Below, in pieces: positions 1,876 through 16,904 of a DNA stretch of 44,427 nucleotides. The DNA is from a virus. The stretch spans positions 1-44,427 of the IMG/VR virus record IMGVR_UViG_3300046500_000048; one strand, given 5' to 3'. Position 1 is the first letter of the stretch. Each line of letters opens with the position of its first letter. The translations under genes and the position numbers were made by a program. Under the pieces are notes generated by a model. It ran no database searches. It was not told the DNA's origin and saw only the letters and a list, made by a program, of their open reading frames with translations.

Positions 1876-1946
1876 GATATCCTCAATAGTTATAAATTAT
1901 AGATAATAAATGTTCCGCTGCTCTTTGCTCCTCACCGGGGCTTTAT

Positions 1947-2070
1947 CAGGGGATGATAACTTAACACAGTAGGTACCAAGGGTAGTTCACCCGGTGCTCG
2001 CCTTATGGCGATCCTGCGGCTTCCTACTATTTCCTTGGTATCCATCTGCTTATAAGTTTATCAGCCCCTG
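1947..2070 (-). ncRNA. Candidate structured RNA element with pseudoknot, between portal and next gene
   Basis: Read as minus-strand RNA. Helix A closes the element: 2070-2053 pairs with 1963-1947 (about 16 bp, one mismatch and one bulge). Inside it, helix B (UACCAAGG at 2040-2033 with CCUUGGUA at 1981-1974, 8 bp perfect) and helix C (AGUAGG at 2028-2023 with CCUACU at 1973-1968, 6 bp perfect) cross each other, which is a pseudoknot. The two 3' strands are contiguous, allowing coaxial stacking. The 41-nt interior also holds small hairpins (CGCC-AUAA-GGCG). The whole 255-nt gap 1876-2130 has no plausible gene. It could be a cis-acting mRNA element, a processed small RNA or a cis-acting DNA site; no known RNA family is recognised. 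Confidence 0.55.
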
Positions 2071-2130
2071 CGCCCAGCGATACGCGACGATCAGCTAAGT
2101 GTTAGTGTTGCTGTCGGTACTGGCGGCCGA

Positions 2131-4134
2131 TTACTGTTGCTGGCTCTGAGCATTACCGGGATTGTTACCTTGTGGCTGATAACCAAACTGTTGCGGAGTA
2201 GGTTGTGGTGGGAACTGTTCTGGCTTAATATCTGGATTCTGTTTAGCCAGTTGCATAACAAGTTGTTGCCACTGTCCCACTGCCTGCTCATAAGCCATCT
2301 GTTCTGGTGATTTCTCGAAAGCAGAAAGATCAGCGCCCTGAGTATTCATAAGGTATGTGAACAATGGAGCTACATTATATCCAGCCGCCACAGGAGAGTT
2401 AGGAGTACCAATCTGCTGGAAAGCTACTGCCAGAACATCACCATTAATAAGCTTATCAGTTGGAGTCAGGCCATCAGAGATTTTAAATTCCAGAGATGCC
2501 TTACGAAGAGCAACTGGATCAATATTAACTTGTGTACGTTTCTGAGGGTTATAAACCTGAGAAGCGCCCTGATACTGAAGGATATTAAGTTTTAACATCT
2601 CCTTAGCAGGAGTGAAGAACTGAGCTTCCAGCAGCATAGATGTAGCTTGATCTCGGCCATTAGCATTCCCCATAACAGTATCAAATTCATGAGTGGTTTT
2701 ATTACCCTTCACAAACTGACCTTGTTTAGCCGGATTCTGACCACTAATCTGATTAGCAAATTGTCCCAGCAATCCAATCTGTTGCATCATCAATGGAGAC
2801 TGATCATCTTTGAATGGAATAGAATAGTAAGCTTCTCCTAATGGCTTACCATAAGCAGAGGGCTTAACTGGAATCTTAGCAGATGGATTTACACTATTAA
2901 TATGTGCAGAGTCTACACGACTTGGATCATATAGGCCACGGTCGCTAATGGCGCGACGACGAGCTGCAAGTACCGAGTTCATAAGGGCACTGCTAATATC
3001 CTGAATTGGCTCCACATTCTTAGCAAGCGATTTAGTCTGATACTGCAAGCCATCTTCATTAGGCTGCATAAACAGAATAGGCAGCATGTTATGAGCATTA
3101 GTCTGGCGCTCAGCATAAACAATAACTTCATTGTTCACGATGATAAACTTCCAGATTTGCGGCGTATTAGACTGCGGTACGAACATTGCGAAATCAGATG
3201 GCAAGATACGAGCATAGAGAACAGTAACATCATACATGTTCTTATACTGAATCTTATTAGTATCTGCACCAGACAATCCTGCCCAGCTCATCCAATCCAT
3301 ACCTTGATTAACAGCATCTAAAAGGCCACCAGCTACATTGATATCTGGAACATAATAGGTAAAGATACTGTTGGAATTAACAAGGCTACCAGCCGCTGAA
3401 CCAGCACCAGATTCCAAGGCTGCTTTAACATTGGAGATAATCTTATCTGGCAACTCATTGAGGAAACTCTTGAGTTTAATTCTAGACATCAGACGCTTAT
3501 AACCAACGAACTCACCATCAACATGAATAGCAGTTGGTGCTACACGCAGATCCCAGAATGTATTATAAAGATCCATTCGCCTAAATACATTACCTTCCCA
3601 ATTAATTTCTTTAGGCTTACCAACCTTACCATTACCAAAATTAACATCAGTATCAAAGCTAGCAGATACCTTACGTTCCCAAACTAATTCAACTGCTGCG
3701 AGATTGTATTTAAATCCATCACGGAATGCCATTTGCAGTTCACGAACCCAGCCGCCTTTGGTCTGGTTATCTGCAATGACTGATTCCATTTGCAGACCTT
3801 GAGAACTGTATTGCGGGGAAGGAGCAACACCAAAGATAGGAGAGCCTTGCAGAAACACAGAAGATTGATATACAACTGCGGCCTCAACCTGTGGCATAAC
3901 AACAGGAATTGTAAGGTCTTGATAGCGATTCTGATCACCGTATCTATTAGCTTGCTTAGCTTTGCGATTCTCTTCTAGCTGATTCTTTTCACGATTATAA
4001 GCTAGGTCCATATCACGCAACTTAGCACGAATATTGATACCCTTATTATAAAGATTGAAACACTGCTTAAGGTATTCAATAATTGCTGCTTGTGATTTAT
4101 GGCTAAGATTAAATGGGGTATTGGCTGTAGTCAT
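2131..4134 (-). CDS. Portal protein
   Basis: 667 aa. Builds the dodecameric ring at the unique vertex through which DNA is packaged and ejected, and docks the terminase and tail. Evidence: position two genes after the large terminase and before the scaffold and capsid genes; length typical of podovirus portals; an N-terminal helical region, a long mixed alpha/beta core, and a Pro/Gln-rich C-terminal tail (last 40 residues, QPQGNNPGNAQSQQQ). Such disordered tails are common after the portal barrel. ATG at 4134. The downstream 255-nt untranslated stretch is unusual in this otherwise tightly packed operon. Confidence 0.85.
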   Translation of the reverse strand: MTTANTPFNLSHKSQAAIIEYLKQCFNLYNKGINIRAKLRDMDLAYNREKNQLEENRKAKQANRYGDQNRYQDLTIPVVMPQVEAAVVYQSSVFLQGSPIFGVAPSPQYSSQGLQMESVIADNQTKGGWVRELQMAFRDGFKYNLAAVELVWERKVSASFDTDVNFGNGKVGKPKEINWEGNVFRRMDLYNTFWDLRVAPTAIHVDGEFVGYKRLMSRIKLKSFLNELPDKIISNVKAALESGAGSAAGSLVNSNSIFTYYVPDINVAGGLLDAVNQGMDWMSWAGLSGADTNKIQYKNMYDVTVLYARILPSDFAMFVPQSNTPQIWKFIIVNNEVIVYAERQTNAHNMLPILFMQPNEDGLQYQTKSLAKNVEPIQDISSALMNSVLAARRRAISDRGLYDPSRVDSAHINSVNPSAKIPVKPSAYGKPLGEAYYSIPFKDDQSPLMMQQIGLLGQFANQISGQNPAKQGQFVKGNKTTHEFDTVMGNANGRDQATSMLLEAQFFTPAKEMLKLNILQYQGASQVYNPQKRTQVNIDPVALRKASLEFKISDGLTPTDKLINGDVLAVAFQQIGTPNSPVAAGYNVAPLFTYLMNTQGADLSAFEKSPEQMAYEQAVGQWQQLVMQLAKQNPDIKPEQFPPQPTPQQFGYQPQGNNPGNAQSQQQ

Positions 4135-4459: not shown

Positions 4460-6040
4460 TTAATAACAGCAGTTATCAATTTCAACATCAATCACTGAAT
4501 GCTCAAGTTCTCTGATCTCACCAATAGAAACTACATACTGACCAAACTCAGCTTGTACGCGTGGAGCATAACAGAGAAGGTCAAGAATATCATCACTATT
4601 ATCTAGCTTCATTGGATTGAAAGTTACCATCTGTGCGTGAACTTCAGCTCTCAGATCACCATGGATAACAATGTCTCCAGCTTGATAATCTTTAAACATC
4701 TGAAGGATACGAGAGTTCTTAGAGTTACCACCGGGGTAAATCTCTACACATTGAATACCGATGATACCCATTTGCTCACAGATGAACTTAAACCAATAGA
4801 GAAGAGTAGCTTGATACGCTACAGATTCAATTGCTACTAGCCTGCAATTATTCTCAAGGCAGAATTTAATCGCAGTTCTAATTGTATCAACAGGACTTAA
4901 CCTATCACTTCTGAGCTTTCTCAATACTGGCTTAGTTGCATGAACTTCGAAATAGCCAACTGCTACTTCATCTGATTTCTTTTTCCAACCAGATGGATCG
5001 ACAATAACAAAGTTCCCTTCTGGGATTTGATCATTAGGCCACTGATAATCTTGGATCTTAGAGAAATCAATAAGGTTATTAGACGCAGCGTTTTCATCAT
5101 TAAGAACTTCTGAATAAAATACTTCTGGCCGACCCATTGCAAGGTCATTCTCAAATTCTCTTGTTAACTGTTCAATAGGTTGTAGCTCTTCCCAAAGAGA
5201 AGTACCGTCCGCAAGAATGCCACCAGCAATGAATTTAGCCCAGTTAGGATTGGCTTTTAATCTCCTAAGAATTGACCACTTAGTAGGATACATATTAGCC
5301 ACAAACAAGAACATGCAACCAGCAGGTGACTTGGCTTTCATAGCAGTACCAACCATCCACTGCTCTAGTGCATTAGAAAGGATCTCACTATCAGCTTCTT
5401 CACGAGATTGAATATCTTCAAAGATCATCACATCTGGACGTTCATTGTTAATATTCATACCACGAAGGCTAGTACCGGCGCCAATACCTGCCAGAACTAT
5501 GTTCCTTCCACGGAAACCAAACTTCTTCATTGCTTGGGTATCTTGTACTAACCCTTGTCTCCAATCTCCAAATACCTTCTTGATATTTGGTTCATCTAGA
5601 AAGGCTGCAATGTCGAAGATAATATTCTCAGCTAGTTTAGCTGTATTGGAAATAACAAGGATAAACTTCTTATTAGTGAAGAGAATGCAATAGAGTACAA
5701 ATAGTTTGATAACAGTAGTCTTACCAAAGCCACGAGGAAGACCTAATGCTAGTTGCGGAAAACTACGGGGCTTTTTAAGTTCATCTAATAACCATAGCCA
5801 TACACTTACAAATACCGGTGGAAAGCAGAAGCGAAAGACAACCGGAGCTGCAAGTGCTGCAAGGAAGTCAAGGGATGTTCTTGCAAGGTTATGGACTTGC
5901 TCTGCTTCGAAAGCAGCTTCTTGAACTGGGATTTCTTCTTCTTTATAGTTAGATCCATAACTGGCAATCTCTGTATCCGCTTTTGCTGCTTTGATTTCTT
6001 CATCTGTAGCTCCCAAAGATTCCAATAAAGTCTTACCCAT
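4460..6040 (-). CDS. Terminase large subunit (DNA-packaging ATPase and nuclease)
   Basis: 526 aa. Pumps DNA into the prohead and cuts the concatemer. The ATPase domain has Walker A LPRGFGKTT (about 101-109), Walker B PDVMIFEDI (202-210, catalytic Glu after the Asp-like pair) and a coupling segment near FVANMY (246-251). The RNase H-fold nuclease has candidate metal ligands Asp348 (VIVDPS), Glu405 (VAIES) and an Asp around 483-487 (SDDILD). Length is normal for large terminases. A strong GCAGGAGCTATT site precedes ATG at 6040. It follows the small terminase, the usual order. From sequence alone I cannot tell headful from site-specific cutting. Confidence 0.93.
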   Translation of the reverse strand: MGKTLLESLGATDEEIKAAKADTEIASYGSNYKEEEIPVQEAAFEAEQVHNLARTSLDFLAALAAPVVFRFCFPPVFVSVWLWLLDELKKPRSFPQLALGLPRGFGKTTVIKLFVLYCILFTNKKFILVISNTAKLAENIIFDIAAFLDEPNIKKVFGDWRQGLVQDTQAMKKFGFRGRNIVLAGIGAGTSLRGMNINNERPDVMIFEDIQSREEADSEILSNALEQWMVGTAMKAKSPAGCMFLFVANMYPTKWSILRRLKANPNWAKFIAGGILADGTSLWEELQPIEQLTREFENDLAMGRPEVFYSEVLNDENAASNNLIDFSKIQDYQWPNDQIPEGNFVIVDPSGWKKKSDEVAVGYFEVHATKPVLRKLRSDRLSPVDTIRTAIKFCLENNCRLVAIESVAYQATLLYWFKFICEQMGIIGIQCVEIYPGGNSKNSRILQMFKDYQAGDIVIHGDLRAEVHAQMVTFNPMKLDNSDDILDLLCYAPRVQAEFGQYVVSIGEIRELEHSVIDVEIDNCCY

Positions 6041-16556: not shown

Positions 16557-16904
16557 TAGTTAGAATATCCTTGCTGACTGTGGTATATATTCACGAACAT
16601 GTCAGGGTAGGTTTGCTAGTTCCGGGATAAAAACTAGCACTAAAGATTATGCTCCCTTGATCGGTCGGGCATATCAACAAGGTTCCTAGTTCCTTGCTAA
16701 CACAATACTAGGATTGGCATCTCAAGACACTCATAGTACCTAACTGCGGGTTAGGATGAGAGATGCCTCTTATATAGTTCCTCTTGACTTCAATCATTAG
16801 AGCTAACTCCTCAGCCAAGTTTATCTAATCCGGTTGAGAGGGACTATATAAGATTCATGCATCACATCTAAAGACCATGGACCAATTTAATAATAACTAT
16901 ATCC
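16557..16904 (+). ncRNA. Candidate structured RNA downstream of the 273-aa gene
   Basis: No gene in about 350-380 bases, but nearly continuous base pairing. CTGAC/GTCAG (16574-16605). GCTAGTT/AACTAGC (16615-16638, 7 bp). TATGC-T-CC/GG-GCATA (16648-16673). CCTAGT/ACTAGG (16685-16712). A composite 18-bp hairpin, GGCATCT/AGATGCC plus CTCAT/ATGAG plus CCTAAC/GTTAGG (16716-16767), has all bulges on its 5' side. Directly adjoining it is a 22-bp stem with four G-U pairs (16768-16789 with 16832-16853), enclosing ATTAGA/TCTAAT. No U-run follows. It is likely the 3' UTR of the abundant upstream mRNA or a processed small RNA. No known family recognised. Confidence 0.55.

Follow-up and report, generated by a model that had tools for sequence, protein, structure and literature searches.

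A foldback rod with covarying nested helices beside the portal gene of uncultured podoviruses

The window, that is the whole stretch of DNA analysed, is a 44.4-kb virus record from an uncultured, podovirus-like phage which has its own DNA polymerase and primase genes. Close relatives are mostly IMG/VR contigs, and the closest isolates (EBPR podovirus 3, Polaromonas phage Tiera, Aeromonas phage P5 and the Pseudomonas PaP2 group) are far off, at 22-35% in the portal. The head operon runs on the minus strand, and includes the terminase large subunit gene (4460-6040), a 90-aa ORF, the portal gene (2131-4134, 667 aa; PHROG portal, E 1.3e-78), a 96-aa ORF (1585-1875) which has no PHROG or Pfam match, and a 247-aa ORF (750-1493) which, judged by position, is likely the scaffold. 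An earlier reading, made from the sequence alone, reported 255 non-coding nucleotides between the portal and the next gene; the figure is exact, and the gap spans 1876-2130. GAGGA at 1880-1884 (minus strand) is the predicted ribosome-binding site of the 96-aa gene, and lies outside the structure described below. A second non-coding gap of the window (16595-16894) hosts several strong stems in the minus-strand fold (z -3.5).

The feature residing in the portal gap is an irregular hairpin rod of about 190 nt (1912-2098, minus strand), built of nested helices that bulges interrupt, and capped at its tip. In the MFE fold the whole foldback measures about 187 nt and runs from UUAGCUGAUCG to GCAGCGGAAC. 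The segment 1930-2085 folds at -68.3 kcal/mol (z -5.8), a value reached by none of 200 dinucleotide shuffles, and the entire gap departs from dinucleotide shuffles at z -4.3 to -5.1. The proposal of the sequence-only reading that a structured element separates portal and the next head gene is supported, and the element is conserved in homologues. The rod core (1949-2071, minus strand; 123 nt, 41 nested pairs) is matched by the covariance model R3 at 141.4 bits.

All helices are given on the minus strand. The outer helix pairs UCGCUGGG (2073-2080) with CCCGGUGA (1932-1939) in the MFE fold; both arms are unchanged in the related phage L003, and two pairs are G-U on the sense strand. The closing helix of the earlier reading holds as complementarity between CAGGGGCUGAUAAACUUA and UAAGUUAUCAUCCCCUG, but not as a continuous stem, being broken up by bulges: AGGGG c UGAUAA a CUUA (2053-2069) faces UAAG UUAUCA u CCCCU (1948-1963). 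In helix 1 of R3 (columns 4-19) both sides are changed in A12 at 9 of 14 pairs. Further in, GCAG a UGG (2042-2049) pairs with 1966-1972, with 89% of cells paired and two double changes. Helix A follows, UACCAAGG (2033-2040) with CCUUGGUA (1974-1981), paired in 97% of cells and again doubly changed at two places, and encloses a short inner helix, GUAG (2024-2027) with CUAC (1982-1985), in which three of the four pairs exhibit double changes. The tip hairpin, GCAG..UCGCC auaa GGCGA, maps at 1998-2017, and the pattern GCAG..UAAG..(G)ACC is conserved in the alignment of the window, L003, L018 and L090.

The inner helix takes the place of a helix B (6 bp, 2028-2023 with 1973-1968) which had been thought to cross helix A (8 bp, 2040-2033 with 1981-1974) in an enclosed pseudoknot. 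A and B are indeed perfect complements. Their crossing had been deemed improbable by chance, but when helix A is held fixed and the flanking stretches are shuffled, 45% of the shuffles contain a Watson-Crick helix that crosses A and is 6 bp or longer. Over four homologues the pairing of helix B amounts to 70.8%, with 65.7% in shuffled sequences (132 of 500 as high); the helix counts one double-change pair, and is not maintained in three homologues. Both strands are contested by conserved nested pairs: the 3' strand (1968-1973), most of which falls in the 3' arm 1966-1972, by the UGG of GCAGAUGG, the 5' strand (2023-2028) by GUAG:CUAC (2027-2024/1985-1982). In L003 a change of AGUAGG to AGUGUG disrupts helix B, and GUAG:CUAC is replaced by GUGU:ACAC through two double compensations; since pairing was kept here and lost in B, the inner strand pairs inside A, not across it. 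The H-type pseudoknot A x B was rejected, B being at shuffle level across homologues while the nested alternatives covary, and a pseudoknot role is supported for neither B strand. Among the three helices drawn by the sequence-only reading, the closing helix and A covary within the nested rod; B does not.

Four members, the window, L003, L090 and L018, form what we call the window group. L003 is 83% identical in the portal and carries the element at the same place. Identity between the two phages reaches 87% over the region 1910-2098; for the next gene it is 76%, and for portal third codon positions 62%. The excess over third codon positions suggests purifying selection on the element. The outer parts are near-invariant, the inner loop has diverged. 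Within the group, 89% of the cells of the nested rod are paired, and 19 of the 41 pairs are double-changed. Nested-rod covariation in the four phages is 0.553, against 0.258 in shuffled alignments (none of 500 as high) and 0.05-0.17 in slid controls, in an alignment that leans towards structure since it was fitted to a model built from three of its members; a three-sequence MAFFT alignment agrees (13 of 41 pairs double-changed, 0/500). R3, trained on three sequences, detects the untrained L018 at E = 8e-14. In L018 the element is displaced downstream by one gene, with a 168-aa ORF ahead of it and a 93-aa counterpart of the 96-aa gene behind. The 168-aa ORF (L018 5035-5542) is not found at that place in the window or in L003, and looks like an inserted gene.

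In most relatives there is little space after the portal: 122 of 142 distinct portal loci have <40 nt to the next gene, and a long structured gap occurs in a handful. A scan of other gaps revealed comparable rods in further relatives, placed between the terminase and portal genes; these rods, herein called the sister group, have GUCAA, CUAGCGNAGCGG and UAAGCU in common. In 19 sister-group sequences, one of which (L074) entered the model at only E 0.1-0.4, 84% of the cells are paired and 18 of 24 pairs are double-changed. Covariation in this set is 0.507, against 0.154 shuffled (0/500), and in a set of 10 sequences 0.566 against 0.191. Model R1 detects the untrained L162 (2e-10), L176 (1e-9), L091 (6e-8) and L033 (2e-4), model R2 the untrained L020 (E 2e-6); the untrained members found by sister-group models lie on the operon-sense strand, adjoining the portal. 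Further loci gave no match at E up to 1 to R3 (100 loci) or R2 (83 loci). The covarying nested helices, and the recovery of untrained members by the models, indicate that the nested rods make up a family. With the sister group, for which separate models were built, about 24 members are supported by covariance models. The groups are likely of common descent. The link is weak in terms of score: L090 matches the sister-group model at 11.4 bits (E 0.0043 in a 216-nt test), and the window scores 1 bit on its own strand. L090 combines the window-group fold with a GUCAAG/CUUUAC stem. Similar-looking gaps occur in L118 before the portal, and in L123 and phage P5 after it; their model scores are not significant.

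The members all belong to one clade of uncultured podoviruses, are always in operon sense, and are found at junctions around the portal. The element lies directly after the portal in the window, L003, L020, L033, L044, L074, L090, L094, L176 and L199; it precedes the portal, or a small ORF preceding the portal, in L091, L162, L166, L167, L177, L179, L180, L184, L197, L198, L238 and L245, and is one gene further than the portal junction in L018 and L173. ORFs of 121-122 aa without a Pfam match separate element and portal in L167 (2614-2979) and L091 (252-620); they are possibly cargo, or ordinary small genes. Carriers host a single copy per genome, and none was seen away from the head operon in the contigs searched. 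In many contigs of 42-46 kb without an element near the portal the models find none elsewhere, though other subgroups could be missed. An IMG/VR-wide motif scan retrieved only this podovirus clade, plus matches judged to be due to chance, and the motif is absent from bacterial genomes. Portal relatives in bacterial genomes sit on MAG contigs, several of 42-55 kb, read as unintegrated phage, and no convincing DNA-level relatives were found in isolate phages or plasmids.

The distribution is patchy. In a quick portal tree, which marks L018 as a non-carrier as its copy was detected later, carriers are scattered among non-carriers, and carrier and non-carrier stand side by side in several cases (L074 by L099 and L122, L162 by L161, L176 by L182 and L187). 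The portal gene of L074 ends with ATGA, followed by the element; in L102, a relative, the ATGA forms an overlap with the gene that follows. In L162 the element is placed between the terminase stop and the portal leader; in the sister L161 the spacer there measures about 28 nt. The overlap and the short spacer of the relatives make insertion the likelier direction in L074 and L162; losses may have occurred elsewhere. The window clade alone does not show insertion, since L018 carries the element as well. Presence or absence in close sisters, and the choice of insertion points, provide a natural experiment, with matched phages with and without the element.

The sequence-only reading took the minus, operon-sense strand as the one that folds, and strand asymmetry favors this choice, as expected of RNA in the late head mRNA. 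Compared with the antisense, the sense strand gives the better fold in 21 of 25 elements under RNA parameters, and in 22 of the 25 under DNA parameters. G-U exceed A-C combinations by 20:9 and 12:4 in the alignments of the two groups; isolated G-U are 14 and isolated A-C 7, beside 1315 Watson-Crick columns. Folding from the operon-sense strand makes the element, most simply, a part of the late head mRNA, and a role as RNA is favored over one as single-stranded DNA; isolated G-U pairs are few, and a single-stranded DNA foldback would thus be compatible as well.

The rod family is unnamed and matches no Rfam family. Rfam 15 gave no match above the gathering cut-off in the window, none at E<=10 in the interval 1800-2200 (6S included), and none at the gathering cut-off in six related loci. 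At E<=10, two sub-threshold matches emerged in seven loci, both outside the elements, and neither to 6S. No tRNA or tmRNA was found, nor was a description of the element in the open literature searched on phage structured RNAs, an absence which is not proof of novelty. To our knowledge, few conserved RNA structures reside inside phage structural operons. The packaging RNA (pRNA) of phi29-type phages is, like the rod, phage-encoded, conserved in fold and variable in sequence, and the rod adjoins the portal. Yet the rod is a simple nested structure lying in the head operon, has no Rfam match, and is not present throughout the clade, as a pRNA should be. Its absence from most near relatives marks it as dispensable, and speaks against a packaging RNA that the phage could not do without. 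Of the three roles raised by the sequence-only reading (a cis-RNA controlling portal:scaffold:capsid ratios, an RNase-resistant small RNA and a packaging-linked RNA), the last is thus disfavored, while a cis-element or a small RNA of accessory character may fit. RNase III sites in T7-type late mRNAs are irregular intercistronic stems of a late operon as well; the rod is larger, features constant sequence motifs, and is patchy among close relatives.

We tentatively prefer, at somewhat less than even confidence, the hypothesis that the rod is an accessory RNA cassette of the late head mRNA, an intercistronic cis-element which would uncouple neighbouring genes and tune their yields via a specific partner. 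The rod has a head-gene stop codon upstream and the ribosome-binding site of the following head gene downstream, and comparison with relatives indicates that it separates genes whose reading frames there touch or overlap. The constant motifs are probably recognised by a specific partner, be it an RNase, a translation factor or a phage protein. Portions of the message upstream and downstream of the rod may then be translated, and decay, at different rates, and the level of the portal would be retuned against those of the 96-aa protein, scaffold and capsid. Should the element tune portal or scaffold dosage, it would be relevant to how phages provide each capsid with a single portal. A stem with no sequence-specific partner, acting as an RNase III cleavage site or an intergenic decay barrier, could be envisaged as well, given the long, irregular double-stranded structure shortly after a stop codon. 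We deem this quite unlikely: motifs are constant while stems diverge, and the element is better conserved than portal synonymous sites. A generic cis stem should have no need for the constant GUCAA, CUAGCGNAGCGG and UAAGCU of the sister group, and these hint that the role is more specific and may be exerted in trans. The rod could be processed out of the late mRNA as a small RNA binding a host or phage protein, as a decoy or in counter-defence, the operon supplying transcription only. The exact position of the element (before the portal, after it, or one gene on) seems unimportant, as such a role would allow, and single copy, patchiness and constant motifs at tip and stem fit with it. The element is however always beside the portal in the head operon and nowhere else in the contigs searched, and processing would be a hypothetical step; we consider a trans-acting RNA unlikely.

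A role for host RNA polymerase was weighed along with these. The foldback may be recognised through a promoter on its 3' arm, active either as folded single-stranded DNA, as in Frpo and single-strand origins, or as a 6S-like RNA. Folding of Frpo lets polymerase read single strands (PMC11541004). The sister-group rods resemble such polymerase-recognised origins in being long imperfect foldbacks, one arm of which carries -35- and -10-like boxes; TAAGCT is nearly invariant though its fold partner varies, about 14 of 25 elements have their best-scoring sense promoter at this homologous position (TTGACA or TTTACA, 15-17 nt, TAAGCT), and the -35 box near the tip with the -10 box towards the base reproduces the topology of a folded promoter. 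In contrast, promoter scores are modest (mean shuffle p 0.22, from members which are not independent), the -10 is weak, in the sister group the -35-like 3' strand varies more than the 5' strand GTCAA, and the window group has different hexamers (TTGGTA-15-TATCAT). These dsDNA phages have no known single-stranded stage, the phage encodes DNA polymerase and primase, and covariation and G-U bias also fit RNA. The rod shares with 6S RNA a size of about 190 nt and a promoter-like topology, but has no large central bubble and no 6S match in Rfam, and lies in a phage mRNA. On the whole, recognition by polymerase is a doubtful alternative. By a strict definition the promoter was too weak to be proven. 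Patchiness, the several insertion points and the insertion into an ancestrally overlapping gene pair recall mobile DNA hairpins of the MITE or REP type, with no role for the phage. Carriers, however, have a single element, confined to the head operon and always operon-sense; no common terminal sequence or target duplication was detected by eye, and base-pair covariation and slow divergence also make this very improbable. A new class of selfish or accessory phage RNA cassette, in which a foldback with a built-in polymerase- or protein-recognition code would spread through related phages, land each time at a portal junction and serve as a portable regulator or decoy, is in our view rather doubtful. 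An element binding polymerase or a defence protein would represent a new phage RNA tactic. Splicing was discarded, as inspection revealed in each carrier examined a ribosome-binding site of its own after the element, and no excision is needed.

Some additional foldbacks and motifs deserve mention. GCGNAGC words are repeated at the tip and elsewhere in rods of the sister group (e.g. L179 2776-2994); such words form unusually stable DNA mini-hairpins. Many tips resemble the CS-6 motif of single-strand origins, TAGCGA/T (PMC10378824); the similarity is explained by GCGNAGCG words, is absent from the window, and was dropped. A scan of whole loci for foldbacks with mononucleotide shuffles was too noisy to be used. 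Aeromonas phage P5 (L230, OM519319) has a 112-nt gap after the portal (4816-4927) with a smaller foldback (z about -3), in which GUCAUAGGGG/CCCCUUUAC resemble the family stem; the model score (12.4 bits, E 4.8) is not significant. A GC-rich, very stable foldback (z -6.2) follows gp09 in Pseudomonas phage PaP2 (L231, NC_005884; 5288-5462). It does not match the rod-family models; PaP2, being an isolate, would lend itself to tests of a head-region foldback. Finally, L004 carries at 1823-2123, about 6 kb upstream of the portal stop, a very long near-perfect inverted repeat (z -5.6) with GACTATC-like words.
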